Shown piece by piece: positions 8,302 through 58,119 of a DNA stretch of 64,000 nt; positions within the stretch are counted from its first letter, which is position 1; each line of letters begins with the position of its first letter. Location of the stretch: the NCBI RefSeq assembly GCF_900116145.1, contig NZ_FPAB01000001.1, positions 124,001 to 188,000 on the forward strand, written 5' to 3'. The DNA is from Streptomyces harbinensis (GTDB lineage Bacteria; Actinomycetota; Actinomycetes; Streptomycetales; Streptomycetaceae). The notes beneath the pieces are model-generated. The model was not told the DNA's origin, ran no database searches, and saw nothing but the letters and a program-made list of their open reading frames with translations. Position numbers and translations under genes: made by a program.

Positions 8302-8720
8302 GCCGCCCGGGCCGGGACGAGGACCCCGACCGGCTCTACACCCTCACCGGAGGGCGCAGCCGGGCGGGCTCCGCCGCTGCCGCGTTCGACCTGGTCACCC
8401 TGGTGGTCAGCGAGAGCGAACCGACCGCGGGCATGCAGTCGGAACACGCGACCATCCTGCGGCTGTGCCAGTACCCCACCGCCGTGGTGGAGATCGCCGC
8501 CGAACTGCGGCTGCCCATCAGCATCGTGAAGATCCTGCTGTGCGATCTCCTCGACCAGGGCCGGATCACCGCCCGCCATCCGCGGACCGCGCCCGCCACG
8601 CCCCCCGGTGCCCGGACGGCAATCGCCGCCACCGGCACCGGCGGCCCGGTGCCGCACGCCGCCCCCCTACCCGACCCACATCTCCTTGAGCAGGTGCTCG
8701 TTGGACTCCGCAACCTCTGA
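8298..8720 (+). CDS. cvnC: Conservon DUF742 protein CvnC
   Basis: 140-aa DUF742 protein, third gene of the conservon, with a winged-helix-like core (EHATILRLCQYPTAVVEIAAELRLPISIVKILLCDLLDQGRI). The start DRLYTLTGGRS near residue 11 is typical of the family. It ends in the usual LLEQVLVGLRNL, whose codons overlap the start of cvnD in another frame. The middle (residues ~95-125) is an Ala/Pro/Thr linker. Coupled to cvnB by an ATGA overlap. Confidence 0.9.
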   Translation: MSRPGRDEDPDRLYTLTGGRSRAGSAAAAFDLVTLVVSESEPTAGMQSEHATILRLCQYPTAVVEIAAELRLPISIVKILLCDLLDQGRITARHPRTAPATPPGARTAIAATGTGGPVPHAAPLPDPHLLEQVLVGLRNL

Positions 8721-9345
8721 CCACCCGCCGCTGCCCGAGCGGCGCGAGCGGCGCATCCCGCTGGGCGGCAACGCCGACAACGGGCTGAAGATCGTCGTCG
8801 TGGGCGGCTTCGGGGTCGGCAAAACCACCATGGTCCGCTCGGTCAGCGAGATCCGGCCGCTGAACACCGAGGAGGTCATGACCCAGGCCGGCGCCGGCGT
8901 GGACGATCTGTCCGCCGTGCGTGGCAAGACCTCCACCACCGTGGCGTTCGACTTCGGCCGGATCTCCCTCAACGAGCAGACCGTGCTGTACCTGTTCGGC
9001 GCCCCCGGGCAGGAACGTTTCTGGTTCCTGTGGGACCGGCTGTTCGCCGGCACCCTGGGCGCGGTGGTCCTGGTGGACACCCGCCGGCTGGCCGACTCCT
9101 GGTACGCCATCGACCGCCTGGAGCAGCACGGCACCCCGTTCATCGTGGCCCGCAACGACTTCGGCGGCCCGCCGCACACCCAGCAGCAGATCCGCGAAGC
9201 GCTGGACCTGCCGGCGCACATCCCGCTGATCGACTGCGACGCCCGCTCCCGGGAGTCCAGCAAGCAGGTCCTGATCACGCTCGTCGAGCATCTGCACGCC
9301 CTGTCCACCACCGGCCGGCCGGTTCAGGAGACGACCTCACCGTGA
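8701..9345 (+). CDS. cvnD: Conservon small GTPase CvnD
   Basis: 214-aa Ras-like/MglA-type GTPase, the switch of the conservon. P-loop GGFGVGKTTM lies near residues 29-38. The switch region has the PGQ form (FGAPGQERFWFLW), and the guanine-specificity stretch is ARNDF. I chose the TTG at 8701 (MDSATSDHPP), inside the end of cvnC. Conservon GTPases typically begin at this point, reading the cvnC C-terminal codons in another frame. The in-frame ATG at 8608 would add 31 non-conserved residues. Overlaps cvnE by 4 bases (GTGA). Confidence 0.88.
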   Translation: MDSATSDHPPLPERRERRIPLGGNADNGLKIVVVGGFGVGKTTMVRSVSEIRPLNTEEVMTQAGAGVDDLSAVRGKTSTTVAFDFGRISLNEQTVLYLFGAPGQERFWFLWDRLFAGTLGAVVLVDTRRLADSWYAIDRLEQHGTPFIVARNDFGGPPHTQQQIREALDLPAHIPLIDCDARSRESSKQVLITLVEHLHALSTTGRPVQETTSP

Positions 9346-10659: not shown

Positions 10660-13217
<2,558 letters not shown>

Positions 13218-20790: not shown

Positions 20791-22440
20791 TCAGCCTTCG
20801 CTGTGGACCGCCGCGATGTTGCGCAGACGCTGCTTGAAGTCCATCGGGATCAGAACCTGAACCCTCCCGACCGGGTGTTGCCACATCCCGTCATGGCCAT
20901 CGGGAGCCATGAGCTGCGCGGCGGCCACTGCGGGAATCGGCTCGGCATGGATGACGGCCTTGACCCCTGCGGCGCGTAGCTCCCTGCCCTTTTCGTGCTG
21001 TGTCGACAACGTGCTCCACCGCCCCCGGTAGGTTTCTCCTGTCGGGAACTCCTCCCAGGTGTCCGGGCGCGTGGGCTGCGCGATGAGCTGCTCACGCCGC
21101 GCGTCCAACCGCTTGTACGCCTCCCGGTATTCCTGCTTGCCCAGCTCACTGGAGTAGAGACCCGCCTCGCGGTCCTCCCTCAGGTCCGACAGGGCGCGGT
21201 TCGCTTCCTCGATGTCGCGCGTGTGGTCCACGCCCGGCCGGAAGACCTTCCGGACGATCTCGACGTCCCCGGCAGCGAGGAGGAACGCCTGTTCCACGGC
21301 GTCCTCCAGCGTGTGCGCCGCGATGCCCTTGCTTCCGGTCGGACACGGCTTGTGCGTGGTACGGGAGGCGCAGCGGTAGTAAGGCCAGTTACGGCCAGGG
21401 GCGAGATATGCCGGCTCCCCACATGTGCAGAACGCGACCCGGAGCAAGGGCGATCCACCCTTGCGGTTGCCGTTGCGCTTGCTGGTGTTCTCGTCCAGCT
21501 TCTTGTTGGCCAGCTCCCACTCCTCATGAGTGATCAGAGGCTCCGCACGCTGGAGCGGCTGACCGTCCGCGTCCCGAACGACCCGGCGTCGTGTCGTCTT
21601 CTTCCCATCGACCATCGTCTCCTCGGATACTTCCATCTGTCCCAGGACGCAGCGGGAGCGCACGACCTTGGCCGTGTTCGCGGCGGTCCACCGGCTCCCC
21701 TTCGGGGTTTTGCCGCTGCGGATCATCTGAGCGTCGAGTGACGTCGGGGTCCTCGACACGTCCTCGTTGAGCCACTGCGCGATAGTGTTCGCCGATTCAC
21801 CCGCAATGAGACGGCGGATGATCTCACGGAGCGTCCCGGCCGTGTCGGTCCCGAAGTCGTCAGGGACGAGCTTCCATCCGTCGCCGGCCTCCTGCTTCTC
21901 CTCGCGGTAGCCGTACGGAGTGCGGCCGCCACGCCAGCGCCCCTCCTTCACCAGGTGGTTGTACGAGGACTTGGCCCGCGCCTTGATGGCTTCGAGCTCC
22001 CCTTCCGCAAAGGACGTGATCAGGCTGAGGAGGAGCCTCCCCAGCTGCGTGTTGAGGTTGATCCCGTCCTCAACTGTCGCGACCTCCTTGCCGTTCTTCT
22101 CGCACCACTCCAGGAGGGTGTGCACGTGGAGCACGCGCCGCGAGAGACGGTCGATCTTCAGCGCGCAGATGATGTCGTACTCGTCGGTGCGTGACTCCTC
22201 CACCGCGATCCGGTGCTCGATCACGCTGACCTCCTTCCCGATGGTCGAGGGAAGCCACTTGCCGAACTCCGGACGCTTCCACGGCTCGACCCCGCCCGAC
22301 ACGTCGATGTCCTCGGCCCACCCCACGACGACGTGCCCCTCCTGATCGGCCCATCGCTGGACGGACCGACGCTGACGCTCCGGCGACGTGGTCTCGTCCG
22401 ACACCCTCGACAGACGCACCACGCCCAGAACTCTCGCCAT
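20791..22440 (-). CDS. Large serine recombinase (integrase)
   Basis: 549-aa site-specific recombinase. The N-terminal resolvase domain begins MARVLGVVRLSRVSDETTSP, with the catalytic Ser probably S11 in the VRLS motif and Arg residues in DRLSRR. The recombinase domain contains VKEGRWRGGRTPYGYRE. The zinc ribbon cysteines are in CTCGEPAY and YYRCASRTTHKPCP. A coiled-coil segment (EEANRALSDLREDREAGLYS) precedes the C-terminus. This is the full phage/ICE-integrase architecture and looks intact. It reads toward the AKR genes inside the insertion, with its start 75 bases from the right junction. Confidence 0.93.
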   Translation of the reverse strand: MARVLGVVRLSRVSDETTSPERQRRSVQRWADQEGHVVVGWAEDIDVSGGVEPWKRPEFGKWLPSTIGKEVSVIEHRIAVEESRTDEYDIICALKIDRLSRRVLHVHTLLEWCEKNGKEVATVEDGINLNTQLGRLLLSLITSFAEGELEAIKARAKSSYNHLVKEGRWRGGRTPYGYREEKQEAGDGWKLVPDDFGTDTAGTLREIIRRLIAGESANTIAQWLNEDVSRTPTSLDAQMIRSGKTPKGSRWTAANTAKVVRSRCVLGQMEVSEETMVDGKKTTRRRVVRDADGQPLQRAEPLITHEEWELANKKLDENTSKRNGNRKGGSPLLRVAFCTCGEPAYLAPGRNWPYYRCASRTTHKPCPTGSKGIAAHTLEDAVEQAFLLAAGDVEIVRKVFRPGVDHTRDIEEANRALSDLREDREAGLYSSELGKQEYREAYKRLDARREQLIAQPTRPDTWEEFPTGETYRGRWSTLSTQHEKGRELRAAGVKAVIHAEPIPAVAAAQLMAPDGHDGMWQHPVGRVQVLIPMDFKQRLRNIAAVHSEG

Positions 22441-30824: not shown

Positions 30825-33800
30825 CAGTCGAACCACCTCGCGGTCGCCAATTCCTCGGAACGGGACGGATCCTCCAGCAGGGCCGCGAGCTCGAAGCGGC
30901 GCTGCCACTGGCCGGTGGCCCAGGCGAGCCCCGCCGCCAGGCCCTCGACCGTGGCGGCGTGGACCCGGGCGTCCGCCCCGTCCCCGTCCTCCGCCGGGCA
31001 GCGCCACGTCACGTCCGTGCCGTCGATCACCAGTTCATTGTGTTCCACATAGGTGCGCGGTGTCCCGGGCCCCAGCAGTGATCGCGCCACGTCCGGCACC
31101 TCCCGCTCGGTGCCGCCCTCCGGTACGCCGGCGGTCAGCACCGCGCTCAACACGGGCACGTCCAGCACGGCCGCCAGCGCCGCCGCCCCGTCCGGCGGGA
31201 CCGGCAGCAGCGCGCGCCCCGCCGCCAGCGGCAGCAGATCGGGCGCGTCGGCGACCGCCGCAGACTCGGCGGGCACCACCCGGGGCATCCCGTCCACCAC
31301 CGCGCGCAGCGCGTCCGGCAGCGTCACCTCGTCCGGATCCAGCTCCGCCAGCAGGGCGTAGAGCCGCACCAGCCGGTCGGCCGTCACCTCGCGCTCCGGG
31401 TCGGCGAGCCGGGCCAGCAGCTCGGCGGCCCCGCCCGGCTCGGCGAGCAGCGCCCGCGCCGTGGTGCGCACGCCCAGCGCGCGCAGCACTTCCTCGTCGA
31501 CGTCCGCGACCCGCGCCTCCTCGTAGAGGCCGGCCAGCAGCGGATCGGCGTCGGCCGCCCGCAGCCCCGCCGGGCGGCGGCCGTCCAGCACCGGGGCGCC
31601 GCGCAGCCACCAGGCGGTGTACGGGCGGGCCGTGGTGACGGTGCCGTCCGGCATCCGGATCTGGACGGGCGCGGTCAGCGCCTGCCGCCACGGCCGGCGC
31701 GCCAGCAGCGACAGCGCCTGCGGCCAGCGCGCCTCGTCGATCAGCTCCAGGTCGCGCACCCCGGTCAGCTCCAGGGCGACCGGCGGCAGCTCGGTGGGCG
31801 GCAGCCCGTCCAGGACGTCCTCGCACCACACGTCGATCGCGTCCAGCACCCCGGCGTCGTCCGGCTCGGGGTAGTCGGTGTCGCGCGGGTCGAGTTCGTC
31901 CGGGTCGAGCACCACGTCGGTGGCCCGGACCAGCACCAGGTCCGCCTGGACGCCGACCGCCGTCAGCGGCTGCTCGCCCCAGCGCGCGACCAGCTCGGGG
32001 TGGCAGGCGGCCAGCTCGCCCGGCCGGATCAGCTGCGCGAACACGCTGCCCGGGTACACCAGCTCGCCCGCCGGGGCGGGGGCGTCGTGCTCGTCGCGCA
32101 GCGCCAGCGCCGCCAGCCACGGCTCCTCGCCGGGCGCCAGCTCGGCGTCCCGCACCAGGGACAGGACCAGGTCGGCCAGTTCGACGGGGCTGAGCGCGTC
32201 GTCGTACCACACCTCCTGGTCGAAGGAGTCGGCGACCGCACCGCGCACCTGCGGGGTGGCCAGCACGGCGCGCGGGGTGGCCGGGTTGGCGCCCAGCTTC
32301 TCCAGCAGCGGGTGCGCGGCGTCCGGGTGGGTGATGCGCAGCCCGAGGCGGCCGAGCCCGGCCGCCTCGGTGCCCGGCACCGGCAGCAGGACGCGGCGCG
32401 GGCCCATCGTGGTGCGGCCGTCCGCCAGCGGCACCGGCAGCCCGGACAGCAGCTCCGGGTCGACGCCGGACAGCGAGTCGTACAGCCGCCACCACCACGA
32501 CGGCGGGCGCTCCACGCCGGCCAGCCGGTCGATCATCTCGCCCAGCGGGACCCGGCTCACCTCCAGGATGCGCAGCTCCGCGCGGCGCTCCAGGCCGGCC
32601 GGCAGCAGGGTGGGGAACAGTTCGGCGAGGACGGCGACCGTGTCCGCGCCCGCCCGCTCCAGCAGTTCGGCCTGCTCGGGGCGGAGCGCCTGCGGCGCGT
32701 CCTCGTCCTCGGCCTTGCCGGCGGCCGTCGGCAGGAACGCGGTGGACGGCAGCCGCTCCAGCAGCAGTTCGCGCAGCGCCCCGTCCAGTTCGCCGCGGGC
32801 CAGCGGGCCGGGGACCAGGTCGAGGATGCCGGGGGTGACGGGGCGCCAGTCGGCGAGCAGCGAGGCGTAGAGGTCGGCGGCGCGGTGCAGCAGATGGTCC
32901 GTCAGCGGGCCGGGCGCGACATGGCGGCGGGTGGGTTCGAGCGGGAAGGTGGCGATGAGCAGCGCGGGCAGCCCCAGCGCCTCGTCGGTGGGGGTCGGCG
33001 CGTGCAGCACGGGCGGGCTGGCCGGCGGTACGGGGGCGCCCTCGGCGTCCACCGGCACGGCCCAGGTGACCGCCCAGCGCGGCCGGTGCCGTTCCTCCAG
33101 CGGCCGGTCGGCGAGCAGTTCGGGGGCGGCCTCGCCCTCGGCGGTGGCCACCCGCCAGCGGGTGGAGCGCACGGCGGAGCCGGCCGGCCCGGGCTCCTCG
33201 GTGATCTGGGTGTACGGGCCGAACCGGCGGTGGGTGAGGGTACGGGTGCCGCCGGGCGTCTCGACCGTCACCTCGGTGAGGGCGGGCAGCGCCAGCAGCA
33301 GCGTGTCGTCCACGGCGTCGAGCAGCCGGGTGACCAGGTCCTCGGCGGCGGCGTCGCGCAGCGGCAGCACCACGGCGGTGTCGTACCCCTCGGGCAGCCC
33401 CGCCGGCGGGTCGCCGGCGGGCAGCGGGAAGGGCAGCCGCAGCAGCGGTACGGCGTGCCGGCCGCCGGCCCGCTGTTCCAGTTCCGCGGTCAGCTCCGGG
33501 TGGTCGGCGGCAATCTCCCCGGCGAGCGCGGTGGCGTCGGCGAGGGACCAGCGCACCCCGCCGGCGGTGCTCACGATGGCGGGGGCGTCGCTCACCGCCA
33601 GCACGGCGGCGAAGCCGACGCCGAACCGGCCCACGGTGGCGGGCGCGGCGCTGTCCCGCTTGGCGGAGGCGCGCAGCGTGGACAGCGAGGCAACGCCGGC
33701 GGCGTCCAGCGGGTCGCCGGTGTTGGCGGCCACCAGTACGCCGTCCCGCAGGGCGAGCCGCAGCCGGCCGGGGCCGCCGGAGCGGGCGGCGGCGTCGGCC

Positions 33801-33994
33801 GCGTTCTGCGCGAGCTCGACCACCACCCGGTCGCGGTAGCCGCCCCGGGCCAGGTCCTCCTCGGCGTTGGCGTCCTCCCGGAACCGCGCCGGGGACGTAC
33901 TCCAGGCGCTCAGTACGGCGCGCCGCAGCCGCTCGGTCTCGAACGGGTCCTCGTGGTTGGTCACGGGGGTGACAGTACCGGGCACCGCCGACAC
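30824..33994 (-). CDS. Large GHKL (sacsin/HSP90-type) ATPase-domain protein
   Basis: 1056-aa protein with an N-terminal GHKL ATPase fold: VVVELAQNAADAAARSG (N-box) and VGRFGVGFAAVLAVSD (G-box) near residues 55-130. About 900 further residues are Asp/Leu/Ala-rich with no recognised domain. Sacsin-type proteins of this kind are conserved in actinobacteria, function unknown; chaperone-like ATP use is an inference. The start is unclear: GTG at 33994, 33985 or 33964 (VTNHEDPFETERL). TACTGT upstream of the last would suit a leaderless start. Coupled to the GH114 lipoprotein. Confidence 0.8.
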   Translation of the reverse strand: MSAVPGTVTPVTNHEDPFETERLRRAVLSAWSTSPARFREDANAEEDLARGGYRDRVVVELAQNAADAAARSGGPGRLRLALRDGVLVAANTGDPLDAAGVASLSTLRASAKRDSAAPATVGRFGVGFAAVLAVSDAPAIVSTAGGVRWSLADATALAGEIAADHPELTAELEQRAGGRHAVPLLRLPFPLPAGDPPAGLPEGYDTAVVLPLRDAAAEDLVTRLLDAVDDTLLLALPALTEVTVETPGGTRTLTHRRFGPYTQITEEPGPAGSAVRSTRWRVATAEGEAAPELLADRPLEERHRPRWAVTWAVPVDAEGAPVPPASPPVLHAPTPTDEALGLPALLIATFPLEPTRRHVAPGPLTDHLLHRAADLYASLLADWRPVTPGILDLVPGPLARGELDGALRELLLERLPSTAFLPTAAGKAEDEDAPQALRPEQAELLERAGADTVAVLAELFPTLLPAGLERRAELRILEVSRVPLGEMIDRLAGVERPPSWWWRLYDSLSGVDPELLSGLPVPLADGRTTMGPRRVLLPVPGTEAAGLGRLGLRITHPDAAHPLLEKLGANPATPRAVLATPQVRGAVADSFDQEVWYDDALSPVELADLVLSLVRDAELAPGEEPWLAALALRDEHDAPAPAGELVYPGSVFAQLIRPGELAACHPELVARWGEQPLTAVGVQADLVLVRATDVVLDPDELDPRDTDYPEPDDAGVLDAIDVWCEDVLDGLPPTELPPVALELTGVRDLELIDEARWPQALSLLARRPWRQALTAPVQIRMPDGTVTTARPYTAWWLRGAPVLDGRRPAGLRAADADPLLAGLYEEARVADVDEEVLRALGVRTTARALLAEPGGAAELLARLADPEREVTADRLVRLYALLAELDPDEVTLPDALRAVVDGMPRVVPAESAAVADAPDLLPLAAGRALLPVPPDGAAALAAVLDVPVLSAVLTAGVPEGGTEREVPDVARSLLGPGTPRTYVEHNELVIDGTDVTWRCPAEDGDGADARVHAATVEGLAAGLAWATGQWQRRFELAALLEDPSRSEELATARWFD

Positions 33995-43953: not shown

Positions 43954-44226
43954 ATGACGGATTCCTTCAGCATCCGCGAAGCCCGGGCGCAGTTCGCCAC
44001 GCTCATCCACCGGGCGGAAGCCGGCGATGCCACGGTGATCACCAGGAACGGCGTCCCCGTTGCAGCGCTCGTCCCCATCCACGAGCACCAGGCGCTGGAG
44101 GACGCGGCGGACGAACTGCTGGCCCGGGAGGCGGAAGCCCACCGGGGGGACGACACGGTCGGCATGAGCGAATTGCTGGCCGACCTGTTCGCTGAGCGGA
44201 ACGGTGGGGGAACAGCCGCCGCATGA
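43954..44226 (+). CDS. Antitoxin, Phd/YefM family
   Basis: 90-aa antitoxin. DSFSIREARAQFATLIHRAE with VITRNGVPVAALVPIHEHQA is the Phd/YefM DNA-binding domain; the acidic C-terminus binds the toxin. Overlaps the toxin gene by 4 bases (ATGA). A GTGTAC inverted repeat covers its promoter, and the start appears leaderless. Confidence 0.92.
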   Translation: MTDSFSIREARAQFATLIHRAEAGDATVITRNGVPVAALVPIHEHQALEDAADELLAREAEAHRGDDTVGMSELLADLFAERNGGGTAAA

Positions 44227-44492
44227 AGTACGCCTTCCGTTTCACCACGGCGGCGCAGCGCCAGCTGCGGGCCGTCGACCAGCCGACGGCGATGCGCATC
44301 CTGGCCGCCCTCACGGCGCTCGGGGACGACCCGTACCGCAAGGATGCGGACATCAAGAAGCTGAGCGGCCACGAGGACCTCTACCGGCTCCGGGTTGGTG
44401 CGTACCGCGTGGCCTATACCGTCGACGACGGGGAACTGGTGGTTCTCGTCATCAAGGTGGGCAACCGCCGCGACGTCTACCGCGGACTGTAG
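44223..44492 (+). CDS. Toxin, RelE/ParE superfamily
   Basis: 89-aa toxin with the RelE-type core LSGHEDLYRLRVGAYRVAYT followed by LVVLVIKVGNRRDVYR. The Arg in YRLR and RRDVYR and the final Tyr correspond to mRNA-cleavage residues of RelE-type enzymes, so it looks active. Coupled to the upstream antitoxin. Confidence 0.92.
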   Translation: MKYAFRFTTAAQRQLRAVDQPTAMRILAALTALGDDPYRKDADIKKLSGHEDLYRLRVGAYRVAYTVDDGELVVLVIKVGNRRDVYRGL

Positions 44493-48984: not shown

Positions 48985-49182
48985 ATGAGTACCGCGACCG
49001 TTCACGGAGCCTCCGCCACCGGGCTCCTCCCGCACCCCCGGCACCGGCTGGGGAACGCGCTGCGCGCCGGCCGGGTCTGGCTGGGCGCGGCGTTCGAGGT
49101 GGTCGTCCTGGGCCGCACCGACCCGGAGGCCGCCGGCGTCAGACGCCGTCCGGGGTCTCCCGCAGCTCGGACGCGTCCATGA
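48985..49182 (+). CDS. 65-residue hypothetical protein
   Basis: Reads MSTATVHGASATGLLPHPRH then RLGNALRAGRVWLGAAFEVV VLGRTDPEAAGV and a Pro/Arg end. The middle is amphipathic or weakly hydrophobic. GGTGGAGG precedes the ATG. It overlaps the convergent XPB-type helicase gene by 44 bases, which weakens the case for the last ~14 residues. Function unknown. Confidence 0.5.
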   Translation: MSTATVHGASATGLLPHPRHRLGNALRAGRVWLGAAFEVVVLGRTDPEAAGVRRRPGSPAARTRP

Positions 49183-50791
49183 TCCGGTAGGCGTAGCCCT
49201 GCTCGGCGAGGAACCGCTGCCGGTGGGCGGCGAAGTCCTGGTCGACGGTGTCCCGGGCGACCACCGAGTAGAACCGGGCCTCGTGCCCGTCCGCCTTGGG
49301 CCGCAGCACCCGGCCGAGCCGCTGCGCCTCCTCCTGCCGGGAGCCGAACGTCCCCGACACCTGGATGGCGACCGTCGCCTCCGGCAGGTCGATGGAGAAG
49401 TTCGCCACCTTGGACACCACGAGCACGCTCAGCTCGCCCTCGCGGAACGCTCCGAACAGCCGCTCGCGCTGCGTGTTGCCGGTGTCGCCCTTGATGACGG
49501 GGGCGCCCAGCGCCTCGCCCAGCTCGTCCAGCTGGTCGATGTACTGGCCGATCACCAGGATCTGCTGCCCGGCGTGCCGCCGCACCAGCTCCTCGGTCAC
49601 CCGCCGCTTGGAGTCGGTGGTGGCGCAGAACCGGTACTTCTCCTCCGCCTCCGCCATCGCGTACGCCAGCCGCTCCGACTCGGTCAGATCGACCCGTACC
49701 TCCACGCAGTCGGCCGGGGCGATGTAGCCCTGCGCCTCGATCTCCTTCCACGGGGCGTCGAAACGCTTGGGGCCGATGAGCGAGAAGACATCCGACTCGC
49801 GGCCGTCCTCGCGCACCAGCGTCGCCGTCAGCCCCAGCCGCCGCCGGGCCTGGAGGTCGGCGGTGAACTTGAACACCGGCGCCGGCAGCAGATGCACCTC
49901 GTCGTAGACGACCAGGCCCCAGTCCCGGGAGTCGAACAGCTCCAGATGCGGGTAGACGCCCTTCCGCTTCACCGTCAGCACCTGGTACGTGGCGATGGTG
50001 ACCGGGCGGATCTCCTTGCGGGTGCCGCTGTACTCGCCGATCTCGTCCTCGGTCAGCGAGGTGCGGCGCACCAGCTCGGCCTTCCACTGCCGGGCCGAGA
50101 CGGTGTTCGTCACCAGGATCAGCGTCGTGGACTTGGCAGTCGCCATCGCGCCCGCCCCCACCAGCGTCTTCCCGGCGCCGCAGGGCAGCACGACCACCCC
50201 GGACCCGCCGTGCCAGAACCCCTCGACCGCCTGCCGCTGGTACGGGCGCAGCGCCCAGCCGTCCTCGTCCAGCTCGATCGGGTGCGCCTCACCGTCCACG
50301 TACCCGGCCAGGTCCTCGGCCGGCCAGCCGAGCCGCAGCAGCGCCTGCTTGATCTGGCCGCGCTCGGAGGGGTGCACGGCGACCTGGTCGGCGTCGATCC
50401 GGGCCCCGACGAGCGGCTTGATCCGCTTGGAGCGCAGCACCTCCTCCAGCACCGGCCGGTCGGTGCTCTGGAGGACGAGCCCGTGCACGGGGTGCTTGAC
50501 GAGGGAGAGCCGCCCGTAGCGGGCCATGGTTTCGGCCACATCGACGAGCAACGCCTGCGGCACCGGGTAACGCGAGTGGGTGACGAGCGCGTCGACGACC
50601 TGCTCGGCGTCGTGCCCGGCGGCACGGGCGTTCCACAGCCCGAGCGGGGTCACCCGGTAGGTGTGGATGTGCTCGGGCGCCCGCTCCAGCTCGGCAAACG
50701 GAGCGATGGCCCGCCGGCACGCCTCGGCCTGCTCGTGATCGACTTCGAGCAGCAGCGTCTTGTCACTCTGGACGATGAGCGGTCCCGACAC
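49139..50791 (-). CDS. XPB/Rad25-type DNA repair helicase
   Basis: 550-aa SF2 helicase of the bacterial XPB group. Residues ~1-170 form the DNA-recognition domain. Walker A is VVLPCGAGKTLVG, motif II is VVYDEVHLLP (DEVH) and motif III LGLTATLVRED. Motif VI is QEEAQRLGRVLRPK. The thumb-like insertion characteristic of XPB lies between motifs III and IV. GTG start at 50791 has GGAGG 7 bases upstream. Role in repair or transcription is inferred from homology. Confidence 0.92.
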   Translation of the reverse strand: MSGPLIVQSDKTLLLEVDHEQAEACRRAIAPFAELERAPEHIHTYRVTPLGLWNARAAGHDAEQVVDALVTHSRYPVPQALLVDVAETMARYGRLSLVKHPVHGLVLQSTDRPVLEEVLRSKRIKPLVGARIDADQVAVHPSERGQIKQALLRLGWPAEDLAGYVDGEAHPIELDEDGWALRPYQRQAVEGFWHGGSGVVVLPCGAGKTLVGAGAMATAKSTTLILVTNTVSARQWKAELVRRTSLTEDEIGEYSGTRKEIRPVTIATYQVLTVKRKGVYPHLELFDSRDWGLVVYDEVHLLPAPVFKFTADLQARRRLGLTATLVREDGRESDVFSLIGPKRFDAPWKEIEAQGYIAPADCVEVRVDLTESERLAYAMAEAEEKYRFCATTDSKRRVTEELVRRHAGQQILVIGQYIDQLDELGEALGAPVIKGDTGNTQRERLFGAFREGELSVLVVSKVANFSIDLPEATVAIQVSGTFGSRQEEAQRLGRVLRPKADGHEARFYSVVARDTVDQDFAAHRQRFLAEQGYAYRIMDASELRETPDGV

Positions 50792-51001: not shown

Positions 51002-52381
51002 GTGCTCCTGCGCTTCCAGGTGACCAACCACGCGTCACTGCGTGACGAGCAAGAACTGTCGTTGATCGCGAATGACGACCGCCCGGGCCGGGCCGAGTGC
51101 GACGTTCCGAGTTCCGAGTTCCGGACGGTTCCGGTGGCCGCCGTCTACGGCCCCAACGCTTCGGGCAAGTCGAACGCGCTGGACGCCCTCATGTGGATGC
51201 GTTTCGCCGTTCTTTCCTCCTTCCGCCGCTGGGATCCCGCCGGAGGCGTCCCCCGCCGGCCCTTCGCACTGCGGACCGACCCGGCACAATTCCCCAGTAC
51301 CTACGAAATGGATTTCGTGGCCGAGGGGACCCGATACGAATTCGGCTTCACCGTCGATGACGAACGCATTATCGAGGAGTGGCTTTTCTGCTTTCCCGAG
51401 GGACGGCGCCGGAGGCTCTATGTCCGCGAAGGCTCCGACAGTGAATCGATGACCTTCGGGCGCTCACTCGTCGGCCGCCCCAAGACCATCGCCCGGCTCC
51501 TGCGCCCCAACAGCCTGTACCTGTCCGTCGCCGCGGCGCAGGGACATGATCTGCTCGGCACACTGCACCGATGGTTTCGCAACGGTGTACGGGTGGCCTC
51601 CGACCAGGATTTCGCCGACCGCCTCGACTACACCATGGAGCTCTACCGGCGACGTGAGACCCGCGGAAGCCGGGGGGAGGCCCTGACGCGGCTGCTGCGG
51701 TTCGCCGATCTGGGCGTGGCGGATCTGCGCGTCCAGGATCAGGACGAAGAGGTCAAGGAAGAACACGGACGGGTCGTGGCGGCGCTGCGCGAAGCGCTGG
51801 GCCGGCGGGTCCACGTGGCCGGAGTTCCGCGCCACCGCGTCCAGGTGGAGCACCGCACGGACGAAGGACTGTTCGGGCTGGAGATCGACGAGGAGTCGAG
51901 CGGCACCCGGACCTGGATCAGCATGCTGGGCCCCGTCCTCTCAGCGCTCGGCGAGGGAAGCGTGCTGTGTGTGGACGAGCTCGACGCACGGCTCCATCCC
52001 TATCTGGCGGATGCACTGGTCGGCCTGTTCCAGAACGCGAACTCCAACCGGCACGGGGCTCAGCTGATCTTCAGCACACATGAGACGTCCCTGCTCGGCC
52101 ACACTTCCCGGACAGAGCTGTTCCGGGATCAGGTCTGGTTCACCGAGAAGGACGCGGGAACCAGCGCGACACGGCTCTTCCCGATAACTGATTTCTATGT
52201 GCGCGACTCAGTGACCAAGGACAACCTAGAAAAGCGCTACCTTTCCGGGCGGTACGGTGCCCTGCCCTTCCTTGACGACGATCTGCTGAGTCAGCTGACG
52301 GCCGAACTCTCGGACGGAGGGGAACGTGGGTCGGGGAAAGTCGCTGAAACGTCCTCCGGCGCATCGCCGGGAGCGGCGTAG
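51002..52381 (+). CDS. RloA-like AAA/ABC-type ATPase
   Basis: 459-aa ATPase of the OLD/RloA-like group. The N-terminus LLRFQVTNHASLRDEQELSL leads to Walker A YGPNASGKSNALDAL (about residue 60). A helical middle part follows, then Walker B-like SVLCVDELDARLHPYLADAL and the switch region LIFSTHETSLLGHTSR. GTG at 51002 has GGGAGG 6 bases upstream, preferred to the frame start at 50975. The next gene, RloB-like, starts inside it at 52326, so the two were co-translated. Such pairs are found among anti-phage and abortive infection systems. GC is slightly lower than neighbours. Confidence 0.85.
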   Translation: MLLRFQVTNHASLRDEQELSLIANDDRPGRAECDVPSSEFRTVPVAAVYGPNASGKSNALDALMWMRFAVLSSFRRWDPAGGVPRRPFALRTDPAQFPSTYEMDFVAEGTRYEFGFTVDDERIIEEWLFCFPEGRRRRLYVREGSDSESMTFGRSLVGRPKTIARLLRPNSLYLSVAAAQGHDLLGTLHRWFRNGVRVASDQDFADRLDYTMELYRRRETRGSRGEALTRLLRFADLGVADLRVQDQDEEVKEEHGRVVAALREALGRRVHVAGVPRHRVQVEHRTDEGLFGLEIDEESSGTRTWISMLGPVLSALGEGSVLCVDELDARLHPYLADALVGLFQNANSNRHGAQLIFSTHETSLLGHTSRTELFRDQVWFTEKDAGTSATRLFPITDFYVRDSVTKDNLEKRYLSGRYGALPFLDDDLLSQLTAELSDGGERGSGKVAETSSGASPGAA

Positions 52382-52957
52382 GGTCCTCATCTACTGCGAA
52401 GGGGAGTGCACCGAGGATCAGTACTTCAAGGGCCTGCGGGCGGACCTGCGCCAATTCCGCTGACCATCGCCCTCGGACCCGCCCACGGTGTGCCGACCGA
52501 ACTCGTCCGCGCGGCCGTCAAACACAAGGAGCGTGCTCCGACCAGTCCAGCCGATCGCCGCACCGCGTACGACGAGGTCTGGTGCGTCATGGACGTGGAG
52601 GCGCCCGCGCCGCATCCCGATCTCCAGCAGGCGTTACGACTCGCCGGCGACCGCGGCATCAAGGTGGCCCTGTCCAACCCCTGCTTCGAACTGTGGCTGC
52701 TGCTCCACTTCCAGGACGTCACCCGATACCGCACCTCCGCGCAGGCGCAGCAGATGCTCGAAGAGCACAAGGGCTGCGGTTACCGCAGGGACCGCAAGCA
52801 TCTCGATTACCCGGCTCTGCGGTCGCTGCACACGGATGCCTGCGACCGGGCCGCGGCGCTGCGCGCCGTCACCGAGCGGGGGCACCGGACCAATCCGTGG
52901 ACGGATGTCGATCAGCTGGTGCAGGGGCTCATGGCCGAGCGGAGGCCGGGCGGGTAA
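52326..52957 (+). pseudogene. RloB-like (TOPRIM-related) gene with a frameshift
   Basis: Frame 1 from GTG 52326: MGRGKSLKRPPAHRRERRRV then LIYCEGECTEDQYFKGLRAD LRQFR and TGA at 52461. Frame 2 continues without overlap loss: IPLTIALGPAHGVPTELVRA through VWCVMDVEAP and SNPCFELWLLLHFQDVT to 52957. Together these make a full ~210-aa RloB, with the acidic CEG-TE motif, the DVE motif and the diagnostic SNPxFExWLLLHF. One base appears missing at ...CGCCA|ATTCCG near 52452. No slippery sequence is present, so this is a broken gene or a sequencing error. Confidence 0.85.
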
Positions 52958-52992: not shown

Positions 52993-53907
52993 TCACGGTG
53001 CGTGGAGGGCCGCGTGGGTCAGGGTGTGGGTGGGGGGTGCGGTGGTGGTGCCGGATTCGGCTGCCCACAGGGCGTCCTGGAGGATCCGGGCCAGGGTCCA
53101 GGCCACCGCGCGGTCGCGGTCCAGGGCGGCGGTGGCCGTCATCAGGTCGAAGCGGCGGCGCAGCGCGCGGCGCGGGTCGGGGGCGGCGGTGATCTCGGTG
53201 AAGCGGTTGCGCAGGGCGGGGAACAGGTCGAAGCAGGGGTCGCCGGCCAGGGGTTTGGGGTCGATCGCCAGCCACGGCTCGCGTTCGCCCGCCAGGACGT
53301 TCGCGTAGTGCAGGTCCCAGTGGAGCAGCGACCCGCCCGGTTCCGGCAGCACCTCGCGGAGGGCGGCGGCGCAGTCGGCGTACAGTGCCCGGTCGGCCGG
53401 GTCGCGGTAGGCGGCGAGCGCCGGGGTGCGCTCCAGCATCCGGGCGCCGATGCCGGCCAGGGTGCGCAGCCCCGGCGGGGCGGGGACGGTGGCCAGCCGG
53501 GCCAGCAGGCCGGACAGCACCTCCAGGGCGGCCAGGTCGTCCGGCACGTCCTCCAGCGAGCGCGGGGCGAGCCGTTCCAGCAGCATGGCGCCGCTCGCCG
53601 GGTCGTGCGCGAGCAGCCGTACGGCGCCGCGCCCGGCCCAGGTCGTCAGGGCGAGGGACTCGCCCGCCGTCTCCTCGTCCACCATCTGGAGCTTCAGCGC
53701 CGCGGGCGTGCCGTCGGTGGTGCGGACGACCGGGAGCACGAGGGCGCACACGCCGTGCGCCGCCGGGCCGTCCGGGCGCAGGTCCCAGCGCTCCAGCAGG
53801 GTGGCGGCCAGCCGGGGCAGGGCGGCGATCCACGCGGCGCCCGGGGCCCCGTGGTACGCCGCGTAGGTGGCCGCCAGCCCTGCCGGTACCTCGATCGGTG
53901 CGCGCAC
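52993..53907 (-). CDS. Aminoglycoside 6-phosphotransferase-like kinase (StrB/hydroxyurea family)
   Basis: 304-aa kinase-fold protein of the APH(6)/StrB group. LLHWDLHYANVLAGERE is the catalytic loop (Asp and Asn) and LAIDPKPLAGDPCFDLFPAL the metal-binding Asp. ALKLQMVDEETAGESLAL holds the ATP lysine and following Glu. Family members inactivate streptomycin or hydroxyurea-type compounds; the substrate here is not determinable. Distinct from the other APH gene at 13288. Confidence 0.88.
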   Translation of the reverse strand: MRAPIEVPAGLAATYAAYHGAPGAAWIAALPRLAATLLERWDLRPDGPAAHGVCALVLPVVRTTDGTPAALKLQMVDEETAGESLALTTWAGRGAVRLLAHDPASGAMLLERLAPRSLEDVPDDLAALEVLSGLLARLATVPAPPGLRTLAGIGARMLERTPALAAYRDPADRALYADCAAALREVLPEPGGSLLHWDLHYANVLAGEREPWLAIDPKPLAGDPCFDLFPALRNRFTEITAAPDPRRALRRRFDLMTATAALDRDRAVAWTLARILQDALWAAESGTTTAPPTHTLTHAALHAP

Positions 53908-55395: not shown

Positions 55396-57957
55396 CTAGT
55401 CGGCCGGGAGTTCGACGGTGCCGGTGATGCGGTGCAGCGGGTAGGTGCGGACCTCTTCCGCCGTGTGGTCGAACGCCGTGACGAAGCCGCCCTCCACCCG
55501 GACCGGCGCCAGGATGTGCTGGGCGGCGACGCCGTCGGCGCCGACGTAGCCGATCCGTACCAGGTCGCCGGAGAGCGCCGCCGCCTGGAGGGTGGCGAGG
55601 GTTTCGGCCGCGGGGGTGCGCGGCAGCGCGCCGGCCGGGGGTGGGGGGACGGGCCGGGCGGCGGTCCTGGCGCCGGCGGCCGTCGCCGCCTCGTCGGTGC
55701 GTTCCTCGGTACGGTCGCCGGCCCGGATCGCCCGGACCGCCGCCGCGAGCAGCCGGTCGTCGGCGGCGGGCGGGCCGTCCGGGACGGGTTCGGGCGCGGT
55801 GCGCGGCGGGGTGCGGTGCCGGGTGGCGGCCAGGGTCACCACGGCGCCCTCGGCGGATTCGGCGGCCGGGGCCAGGCCCAGTTCGCGCAGCCGGGCCAGC
55901 AGGATCTCGGGGGGTGCGCCGGAGATGACGACGGTGGGCGCGATGCGGCGCAGCCGCAGCTGTTCGGCGCGGCGGTCGGCGAGGACCTGGGTGAGCAGGG
56001 CCTCGTCCTCGCAGCGCAGATAGCCGGCGGCCACCCCGACCCGCAGCCGGCCGTGCCGCCGGGCGACGTCGTCGACGAGGTAGGTGAGCGGCTGCGGTAC
56101 GGGGGTGCGGGAGTGCTCGGCGAGGAAGCCGTGCAGCGCGTCGGGGGTCCAGCCGGCGTCCAGGGCGCGGCGTACCGAGGCGGGGGTGAAGCGGTAGACG
56201 GTGGCGCCGCCCTTGGACTCGATGTCGGCGATCAGCGCCATGGCCTGGGCGGGCTCGCGGCTGAGCGGTCCGGGGGCGACGGCGGTCAGGTCGGCCTGGA
56301 GGAGGAAGTGGTCGAGTTCCTCGGGGAGGAGCGGGGCCAGCAGGCGGGCGGCCCCGGCCTCGCGGTCCGCCGCCGGGGCCGTCCCGGCGGGCGTGGAGTA
56401 CAGCGGCACGGAGTCCGCGGACGGCGCCGAGTCCGCGGATGCGGAGCCGGGCGGCACCGAGCCCATCGGCGCCGAGTCCGCCGGCAGCCCCCCGTCCGCC
56501 GGAGCGGCGGCCAGCAGCGCGCGGCCGTACGAGGTCAGGGCGCCGCGGCCGGTCACGCCCAGCAGGTCGGCTTCGGCCAGGACCGCCGCGCACAGCGCGT
56601 CGCGCGCCTCCGGCGTCATCCGGCGCGGCAGTTCCCAGCCGATGCGGTCGCGCACCGCCGCCGGGTCGGGGGCGGTGCCCTCGGGGAGGGCTGCCAGCAG
56701 TTCCAGGACGCGGCGGCGCAGTTCGGCCGCCGGGCCGCGGTCCAGGCCGGGGCCCAGTGCGGTCAGGGTGCGGCCCTTGCCGTCCCGGTCGCCGACCAGG
56801 CCGGGGACCCGGGTGCCGGTGAGCCAGACGCCCACCAGCCGCGCCCAGCGCCGCTCCCCCGGTTCGGCGGCCCACGCGTCGTAGGCCGGGGTGGGCGCGT
56901 ACCGTTCGTCCACCTCGCCGTCGCCCGCCACCAGACCGGCGGCGTACGCCAGTTCGGCCCAGAAGGCGGCCTGCGGCTCGGGGACGTCCAGGGCCACCGC
57001 CGTGCGCTTCAGCTCGCGGACGCCGACCCCGCCGGTGCGCAGCACCGGGGGCGGCTCGGCCGCCCAGCCGGTCAGCAGTTCCTCGATCACGCCCAGCGCG
57101 CCCTGCGCGGCACCGGCGCCCGCCGCGTCGGCCACGCCCGGCGTGTACGTCGCGCGCGCCGTGACCTCCGGCGGCCGGGGGCGCAGTTCGCGGTGCGCGC
57201 GCCCGCCGCGCAGCCGCAGCGCCACCTCGCGCGGCAGCACCACGGTGCCCGGCTGGGTCGGCAGCAGCAGGCCCCGGTCCAGCAGCCAGCGCAGCTGCGG
57301 CCCGGGGCGGGCGGAGACCTCGCCGTACGGCGGCCCCCAGGCCAGCCGGTCCAGCGCCTCGCGGGCGCCGGGCGGCGCCGCCGCCAGCAGCCGGGCGAAC
57401 CGTTCCTCGTCCGCAAACAGCCCGGTGAGCGCGGTCACCGCGCTCACCGGGTCGCCGGTGGCCGGCAGCCCGGCGCCGGTCAGCAGTTCCTGCACCCGGC
57501 GCGGTGAGATGCCCGCGCACGCCTCGGCGACGGTCGGCCCGAGCCCCGTACCGCCGGGCCGGGCGGCGGTGGGCGCCAGCACCTCCTGCGCGGTGCGCAC
57601 CAGCCGCGGCTCGTGTTCGGCGCCCCACAGCAGGGCGCGCCCGCGCAGCCGGGCCAGCGCGTCCGGCAGTTCCCGCTCGCCGCCGGGCAGCAGGGCGGCC
57701 AGCGTGTCGTACGGGCACGGCTGGGGGGCGACGGCCAGCGCCTCGGCGACCTGGAGCGTGAAGACGTCCAGGCGCTCCAGGGCGCGCACCACCGAGGCGC
57801 GGGTGCCGGCCCGGGTGGCCAGCTGCGAGACGTCCCCGGGCAGCGGGGAGAGCAGGTCGGCCCGGGCCCGCAGCAGGGCGGTCAGCTCCTCGTCGCCGCG
57901 GGACCGCAGCTCCTCGGCCAGGGTGCGCGGCGGGCGCGGACGCTGCTCAGTGGTCAT
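55396..57957 (-). CDS. Helicase-associated / XPB-N-like protein with WYL-like C-terminus
   Basis: 853-aa protein of the actinobacterial 'helicase-associated domain' family, which lacks helicase motifs. The N-terminal ~450 residues contain repeated winged-helix-like segments (LRSRGDEELTALLRARADLL start). A low-complexity Ser/Pro/Asp linker (PADSAPMGSVPPGSASADSA) follows near residue 510. ELDHFLLQADLTAVAPGPLS is the XPB/Ssl2 N-domain-like part, and LVRIGYVGADGVAAQHILAP VRVEGGF is a WYL-like C-terminus. Such proteins may partner the XPB-type helicase at 49139-50791. MTTEQRP at 57957 is the start; the frame extends upstream into the XRE promoter. Confidence 0.85.
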   Translation of the reverse strand: MTTEQRPRPPRTLAEELRSRGDEELTALLRARADLLSPLPGDVSQLATRAGTRASVVRALERLDVFTLQVAEALAVAPQPCPYDTLAALLPGGERELPDALARLRGRALLWGAEHEPRLVRTAQEVLAPTAARPGGTGLGPTVAEACAGISPRRVQELLTGAGLPATGDPVSAVTALTGLFADEERFARLLAAAPPGAREALDRLAWGPPYGEVSARPGPQLRWLLDRGLLLPTQPGTVVLPREVALRLRGGRAHRELRPRPPEVTARATYTPGVADAAGAGAAQGALGVIEELLTGWAAEPPPVLRTGGVGVRELKRTAVALDVPEPQAAFWAELAYAAGLVAGDGEVDERYAPTPAYDAWAAEPGERRWARLVGVWLTGTRVPGLVGDRDGKGRTLTALGPGLDRGPAAELRRRVLELLAALPEGTAPDPAAVRDRIGWELPRRMTPEARDALCAAVLAEADLLGVTGRGALTSYGRALLAAAPADGGLPADSAPMGSVPPGSASADSAPSADSVPLYSTPAGTAPAADREAGAARLLAPLLPEELDHFLLQADLTAVAPGPLSREPAQAMALIADIESKGGATVYRFTPASVRRALDAGWTPDALHGFLAEHSRTPVPQPLTYLVDDVARRHGRLRVGVAAGYLRCEDEALLTQVLADRRAEQLRLRRIAPTVVISGAPPEILLARLRELGLAPAAESAEGAVVTLAATRHRTPPRTAPEPVPDGPPAADDRLLAAAVRAIRAGDRTEERTDEAATAAGARTAARPVPPPPAGALPRTPAAETLATLQAAALSGDLVRIGYVGADGVAAQHILAPVRVEGGFVTAFDHTAEEVRTYPLHRITGTVELPAD

Positions 57958-57966
57958 CCCAGCAAC

Positions 57967-57978
57967 GGTACCGGTACC
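57967..57978. promoter_or_regulatory. GGTACCGGTACC palindrome
   Basis: 12-bp perfect palindrome 10 bases upstream of the helicase-associated gene start, in the divergent gap to the XRE gene. Shares the GTAC core with the dyad at 58027-58042. May be a regulator site or restriction-site-like coincidence. Confidence 0.4.
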
Positions 57979-58026
57979 ACCCCCGCCAGGACAGGAAACC
58001 GCCGCAGAACCTCCCATAGCCCCCCC

Positions 58027-58042
58027 GGGGTACCTGTACCCC
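58027..58042. promoter_or_regulatory. GGGGTAC-CT-GTACCCC dyad
   Basis: Perfect 7+7 inverted repeat in the divergent gap between the helicase-associated gene and the XRE/DUF397 pair, 78 bases before the XRE start. Candidate operator for the XRE regulator. Confidence 0.5.
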
Positions 58043-58119
58043 AGCGCATGCAAGTGGACTCGGGGAGTAATGGAGCGGCAAACTCAGGAGCCAGCGATCA
58101 ACAGGACCGGAGAACCACC

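Follow-up and report, generated by a model that had tools for sequence, protein, structure and literature searches.

Genes at the Locus

The window, as the whole stretch of 64,000 nucleotides of Streptomyces harbinensis DNA analyzed here is called, contains an ATPase gene of the RloA/AbiLi type followed by sequences of the RloB/AbiLii type, all on the forward strand. The ATPase gene, rloA (51002..52381, + strand), starts with GTG at 51002, stays open for 459 codons and has its stop codon ending at 52381. Its product is an intact ABC/SMC-like ATPase of 459 amino acids, recognized by the open reading frame, Pfam AAA_21 (PF13304, E 4.5e-39), the PADLOC AbiLi model and a predicted structure. AbiLi is the best PADLOC model for this protein (302 bits, E 1.2e-90) and AriA is the next (130 bits, E 5.6e-38).

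RloA contains a Walker A motif, GPNASGKS (51149..51172, +), a signature-like sequence, SSGTRTW (51896-51916), and a Walker B region, VLCVDELDARLHP (51962..52000, +), which includes VLCVDELD. Residues G50, N52, G55, and K56 of the first motif and D325, E326, L331, and H332 of the Walker B region are invariant in 37 aligned RloA sequences, and an STHE motif lies inside 52064-52084. By Pfam, no TOPRIM domain was found on RloA, only ATPase-type domains and one weak DUF match. The predicted structure (mean pLDDT 85.7) resembles Rad50, SMC heads, and PtuA chains with VIA Z scores of about 17-20; AriA is absent from the 50 VIA matches listed, an absence that excludes nothing.

On the upstream side, the gene for the DNA repair helicase XPB (49139..50791, - strand; NF045503, 861.8 bits), which is the constant neighbor of the pair, has its 5' end 211 bases from rloA. 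The downstream flank begins with an APH(6)-like kinase gene (52993..53907, -; PF04655, E 3.3e-43), which is also present in the related genome G460 (77%) and falls below the cut-off of all four NCBIfam APH(6) models that it matched. This gene, an M23 peptidase gene and a SnoaL_4-like gene separate the pair from a Helicase_C_3 gene (55396..58053, -; Pfam, with a WYL match just below cut-off), which marks the far end of the XPB interval.

The Broken rloB Gene

The rloB frame opens with GTG at 52326, overlaps the end of rloA by 56 bases and is ended by TGA at 52461-52463. The resulting N-terminal fragment (52326..52463, +; 45 codons, then TGA) carries the EGxxTE motif and matches PF13707 positions 1-24 (E 3.4e-5). 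The net change of frame falls within 52448..52463 (+), where homology exits the first frame, to resume in another from 52454. The C-terminal fragment (52454..52957, +) begins at about residue 44, carries the D-V-E and SNPCFELW motifs and matches PF13707 positions 43-195 (E 1e-30). PADLOC names both fragments AbiLii (E 6.6e-7 for the first), and at E up to 1 it reports no other family on them, hence no AriB. A search by Pfam for an HNH partner (PtuB) downstream of RloA gave no match; the gene found there is RloB.

As EGxxTE lies on the first fragment and D-V-E on the second, no continuous RloB frame carries both, and an intact RloB reading frame is absent from the window, with the stop after 45 codons and the remainder in another frame. 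Judged from the sequence, the RloB effector of the window is most likely disrupted and the module in S. harbinensis inactive.

The original prediction had described a P-loop ATPase of the RloA kind, and the open frame, the Walker motifs and the AAA_21 and AbiLi matches agree with it. It had also placed after the ATPase an overlapping RloB-type gene with TOPRIM-like acidic motifs. The overlap, the RloB homology (PF13707) and both motifs were found; the single gene was not, the motifs being spread over two frames of a broken rloB. With RloB frame-broken, the window has no working pair of ATPase and effector as encoded, and the prediction is corrected on this point. The family call survives: PADLOC recognizes an AbiLi/AbiLii pair, and in the part of PMC10440598 that is available RloB is linked to OLD_TOPRIM through HHpred and counted among the relatives of AbiLii.

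Orthologues in Streptomycetaceae

Orthologues of RloA with at least 58% identity were found in 10 of 392 genomes of the genus, the eleventh match having 44%, and in 14 of 391 genomes of the order, the fifteenth match having 50%. These searches gave 18 different genomes; with S. spirodelae and Mangrovactinospora gilvigrisea added, 20 copies were compared, the loci of S. griseoaurantiacus, S. lonarensis, and S. sp. 549 each being counted once. All were located by their RloA, which either matched with an E-value no higher than 1e-95 or belonged to the best 80 of at least 578 relatives.

In all 20 Streptomycetaceae copies examined, the pair stands beside XPB, and RloB homology overlaps or adjoins the end of RloA. 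The start of RloA lies 196-3295 bases from the matched 5' end of XPB in 19 copies; in S. griseoaurantiacus (1 of 20), the pair adjoins XPB at its 3' end. One further close relative, the Nocardia donostiensis locus (L088, 57% RloA identity), lacks an XPB match within the 10 kb fetched to its left and right. Of the 74 RloA loci that are more distant (L090-L163), several of them on short contigs, none has a clear XPB match (E 1e-5) in the fetched flanks; L113 shows only a 29% partial helicase match. In genomes up to G149, coordinates compared by eye place the other RloB matches some hundreds of kb or farther away from XPB, or else on a different contig, and G121 has an RloB match and no XPB match. 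At the DNA level, a long match to the pair was seen only in the window's own genome among the matches listed, the other listed matches within the pair being no longer than about 285 bases.

A literature search gave, among the papers listed, no title on a link of the pair with XPB. For 'RloA' and 'RloB' together, the pair appeared in no title or visible part of an abstract, and the word 'AbiL' is absent from the main text of a survey of actinobacterial defence (PMC10482375). To the extent of these searches, a fixed address of the pair at XPB has not been published.

Effector Loss among the Copies

RloA is open in all 20 copies (449-464 amino acids), whereas RloB is disrupted in five, by different lesions: a frameshift in the window, a nonsense codon after 26 amino acids in L224, an in-frame loss of about 115 codons in L225, a late frameshift in L070, and two frameshifts in L229. 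The other 15 have no frame-breaking, nonsense or large-deletion lesion, as judged from first in-frame stops and frame maps; L234, whose RloB reads on to 333 codons, is counted among these. Since 15 of the 20 XPB-linked orthologues lack a disrupting lesion, the split of rloB is a lesion of the window copy and not the design of the family. A programmed frameshift as a conserved design was considered and rejected, because the intact copies need none and the lesions differ between species.

Because the copies were ascertained via RloA, the sample favors intact RloA, and loci with a severely damaged rloA may have escaped the search. As a partial check of this bias, the RloB search recovers the same eight loci as the RloA search among genomes up to G294. 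The length-based chance that all five broken loci would be hit in RloB is (208/662)^5, or about 0.003, when calculated by hand and ignoring ascertainment. Between the broken L224 and the intact L086, RloB has a dN/dS of 0.12, and from their sequences the RloB breaks look recent.

It could be argued that the break in the window arose through an error in sequencing or assembly, or that it is bridged by recoding, and that the pair works as an ordinary AbiL module. The sequence comes from a single draft assembly in 32 contigs of one strain of the species, and both RloB fragments still match PF13707, so the lesion, if real, is recent. By eye, however, neither a long base run, as an error might involve, nor a classic slippery heptamer for recoding is seen at the break; the neighboring XPB, HelD-like, RloA, and APH frames are all open; and a nonsense codon and a loss of about 115 codons, as found in other copies, are not typical read errors. 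The lesion-free copies need no change of frame, which makes conserved recoding unlikely. Error or recoding is on balance an unlikely explanation, and a true lesion in a formerly complete AbiL module is preferred.

Another reading, somewhat less probable again, is that RloA still has a function once RloB is lost, be it to restrain an incoming RloB (anti-addiction) or to act as a lone ATPase effector. Such a function would agree with the open RloA in all 20 copies, including all five with a broken RloB, and AAA antitoxins are reported from the NetFlax network in the available part of PMC10440598. Yet if the breaks are as recent as they look, an open RloA needs no selection, and the AbiLi protein showed no antitoxicity in PMC3985639. 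Moreover, RloA dN/dS is 0.14-0.21 in three pairs that include a broken copy, against 0.08-0.09 in six intact pairs (all with RloA dS below 0.5, the two sets being different clades), so that selection on RloA is, if anything, relaxed where RloB is broken. Selection on a lone RloA thus finds no support in dN/dS. The preferred reading remains that of a module which has lost its effector.

Probable Exchange of Alleles beside XPB

The address of the pair is fixed and its alleles are not, as is seen from RloA dS compared with flank dS and from conflicting RloA and flank trees. The nearest relative found, G460 (L227), has the XPB, pair, APH(6)-like, M23, SnoaL_4-like, and Helicase_C_3 genes in common with the window and in the same order, and no lesion was seen in its RloB. 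Between the two, dS in the flanking genes is 0.28 for XPB, 0.27 for the HelD-like gene, 0.34 for APH, 0.27 for M23, and 0.37 for the Helicase_C_3 gene (part, 537 codons), whereas it is 1.03 for RloA, 0.75 for the N part of RloB (44 codons only), and 2.09, near saturation, for the C part of RloB. Identity between window and G460 falls at the 5' end of XPB and rises again past 53000. An excess of RloA dS was found in most other close pairs, for example L226-L228 (XPB 0.10, RloA 0.74); the pairs L230-L231 and L224-L086 have none.

In the flank tree, where G186 is represented by just XPB and the HelD-like gene, this genome falls in with the window, G460, and S. lonarensis, whereas in the RloA tree its companions are S. 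spirodelae and G383. In AU tests, the clades of one tree are rejected on the data of the other, with p of 4e-7 and 5e-4 on the RloA data and of 4e-5 and 7e-45 on the flank data, the tested clades having been named after the trees were seen. RloA and flank distances correlate (Pearson 0.70 over 190 pairs), and the history is therefore partly vertical. From these sequences, different versions of the pair seem to be traded among related species without a change of position.

The Interval between XPB and the Helicase_C_3 Gene

Loci that lack the pair were fetched for comparison, 52 from within the genus and one from outside (G295). In the 48 of these 53 in which both ends were found, XPB and the Helicase_C_3 gene are 24 to 6409 bases apart. 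The intervals hold many different genes, a mixed cargo by reading of clustered sequences. Old remnants of the pair were sought in the 53 loci with tblastn, and matches were at chance level only (best E 0.087); none of the fetched loci was a site that lacked the pair but kept the APH and M23 genes downstream. With such a variable slot between XPB and the Helicase_C_3 gene, a functional tie to XPB accounts for the location of the pair no better than a permissive site does.

The pair had been predicted to stand between housekeeping helicases, which is right insofar as XPB lies on one side and the Helicase_C_3 gene on the other, with three genes intervening before the latter. A fixed core locus in all relatives with no link to defence islands had been named as what would speak against a defence pair. 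The pair is not core, being present in 10 of 392 genus genomes, while it does keep to one fixed address at XPB, where no defence island was shown. A role of the pair in DNA repair or housekeeping together with XPB, in place of defence, might be read from the position of all 20 orthologues next to XPB, whether at its 5' or its 3' end, and from the predicted likeness of RloA to Rad50/SMC heads. Such a role is very improbable, since XPB is present in 148 of 150 genus genomes (E 1e-150) and the pair in so few, other species have a variety of unrelated genes in this interval, and more distant RloA-RloB pairs sit elsewhere, with relatives on plasmids (RloA, 84 records) and in phages (RloB, four records).

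In L199 (2855-3874), from another species, the XPB slot holds a gene which resembles, by eye, a DUF262 (GmrSD-like) gene. In L066 (5818-7471, G100), XPB is split between two frames, by an assembly error or as a broken core gene.

The RloB Family and its Predicted Fold

A profile scan of contigs with the RloA alignment was used to select the best 80 loci of at least 578 relatives. By a profile criterion of our own, a near-full-length RloB lies directly 3' of RloA in 57 of these 80. The remaining 23 include contig ends; RloB is split between frames in L103, L123, and L152, and in L106 it lies about 1.3 kb apart from RloA. In L069 (S. lonarensis, 8672-9304) and L088 (N. donostiensis, 11313-11933), the RloB frame is kept and ED..AG replaces EG..TE.

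In the RloB alignment (n = 57), E25, G26, T29, and E30 are conserved at 90% or more and D90 is invariant. The RloB model, made for the intact copy of S. spirodelae in an alignment with 56 further sequences, has a mean pLDDT of 94.3 and places a strand (18-24) just before the near-invariant Glu25 and another (84-90) that ends at the invariant Asp90. TOPRIM domains are marked by a conserved Glu after the first strand and by an Asp-centered acidic motif after a later strand. In the model, the strand-Glu and strand-Asp arrangement of RloB would be as expected of a TOPRIM domain.

Comparison with solved structures is less specific. The RloB model matches the C-terminal region of OLD in 6nk8 with Z 7.6 (rmsd 4.5 over 146 residues) and that in 6njw with Z 6.4, but unrelated alpha/beta folds score about equally, among them lumazine synthases with Z up to 8.4. 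Foldseek of the model against the PDB gave nothing below 0.001, and a sequence search of the PDB gave chance matches only (best E 0.59). Against viral models, Foldseek found one RloB-like phage protein (E 5.8e-11).

The genome of S. harbinensis has a second AbiL-type pair (L064, 8460-10383; G000:C28), in which RloB is in one open frame with the motif CDSDATE instead of CEGxxTE. It lies between coenzyme F420 biosynthesis genes and a glycosyltransferase gene, and among the 10 proteins scanned around it no PADLOC match beyond the pair was obtained at E 1e-5.

Relation to Known Defence Systems and Proposed Function

The closest known systems are AbiL of Lactococcus lactis (AbiLi-AbiLii) and the RloA-RloB pairs of type I restriction operons, with which the locus shares the best PADLOC models for both proteins and the gene order, in which RloB comes after the ATPase and overlaps or adjoins it. 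Unlike these, the window copy has a frame-broken effector, is chromosomal and is fixed beside XPB. PARIS (AriA-AriB) likewise combines an ABC-type ATPase with a separate effector, which is of the TOPRIM type in PARIS and probably so in RloB, and the AriA model matches RloA; the partner in the window, however, is RloB/AbiLii and not AriB, and the AbiLi model scores 302 bits on RloA against 130 for AriA. Septu (PtuA-PtuB) and the PtuA of retrons share the ATPase fold of RloA (VIA Z 16.7-18.1 to PtuA chains), but the partner in the window is RloB, with no match to an HNH nuclease. OLD and Gabija GajA share the ATPase core, and OLD C-terminal regions are among the structural matches of RloB; in contrast to class 1 OLD and GajA, RloA has no fused TOPRIM domain and the effector is a separate gene.

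Phage resistance of AbiL by abortive infection is attributed to Deng (1999) in the available part of PMC10440598. In the part of PMC3985639 that is available, AbiLii of Fusobacterium nucleatum is toxic in Escherichia coli, whereas AbiLii of L. lactis is not, and AbiLi did not neutralize the F. nucleatum AbiLii. In PARIS, as described in the accessible parts of PMC11455837 and PMC12409363, the ATPase AriA sequesters AriB, and a phage trigger releases AriB, which cuts tRNA.

The reading that we favor with some confidence is that the locus carries a broken copy of an AbiL (RloA-RloB) module, that the window copy is probably inactive, and that its intact orthologues are probable abortive-infection modules which are exchanged by recombination at the XPB address. 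Their family membership indicates that the orthologues probably serve in defence, and the analogy with PARIS makes it rather likely that they are abortive-infection modules of a similar broad logic. In the intact copies, RloA would be an SMC/Rad50/PtuA-like ATPase with a holding or sensing role, and RloB would be a metal-dependent TOPRIM-like nuclease, freed or switched on by phage infection, as the families suggest. Activated RloB would then stop the cell, in the way that AriA/AriB do in PARIS. Homologous recombination in XPB and further genes of the flanks may carry alleles from one species to another, and the cost of RloB may be why this effector is lost so often.

A more far-reaching possibility, which we hold to be doubtful, is an address-locked immune cassette: one AbiL clade, in Streptomycetaceae only beside XPB, whose alleles are exchanged through conserved neighbors and whose effector is repeatedly switched off, with the ATPase kept, perhaps against incoming active versions. 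For the window, the reading is corrected in that the effector is dead here as encoded. With both intact and broken AbiL alleles occurring naturally at a single address, the cost of RloB and the route of exchange become testable.

Other Genes of the Window

PADLOC at E 1e-10 on the 61 called genes of the window finds AbiLi in one gene and AbiLii in one gene, and the scan fits the earlier remark that the pair stands without restriction-modification genes. The PbeA match is XPB itself, a generic helicase. Further matches among the 61 genes are mad3 (two genes), mad8, HTH_VI, CSD_V, and two further bearers of AriA. TmtA models match the N-terminal half of a 1046-amino-acid protein encoded at 30827-33964 (E 3.5e-46), about 17 kb from the pair; this protein has only a sub-threshold sacsin domain in Pfam, and its gene is a lone defence candidate. 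These results do not show a defence island around the pair, and the wider window has candidates.

A serine recombinase (20794-22404) with Resolvase and Recombinase domains possibly derives from a mobile element; one of the 61 genes matches the PHROGs 'integrase' family phrog_95 (E 1.9e-93) and may be this recombinase. At 43954-44489, a Phd/YefM antitoxin gene is followed by a ParE-type toxin gene, both named by Pfam.
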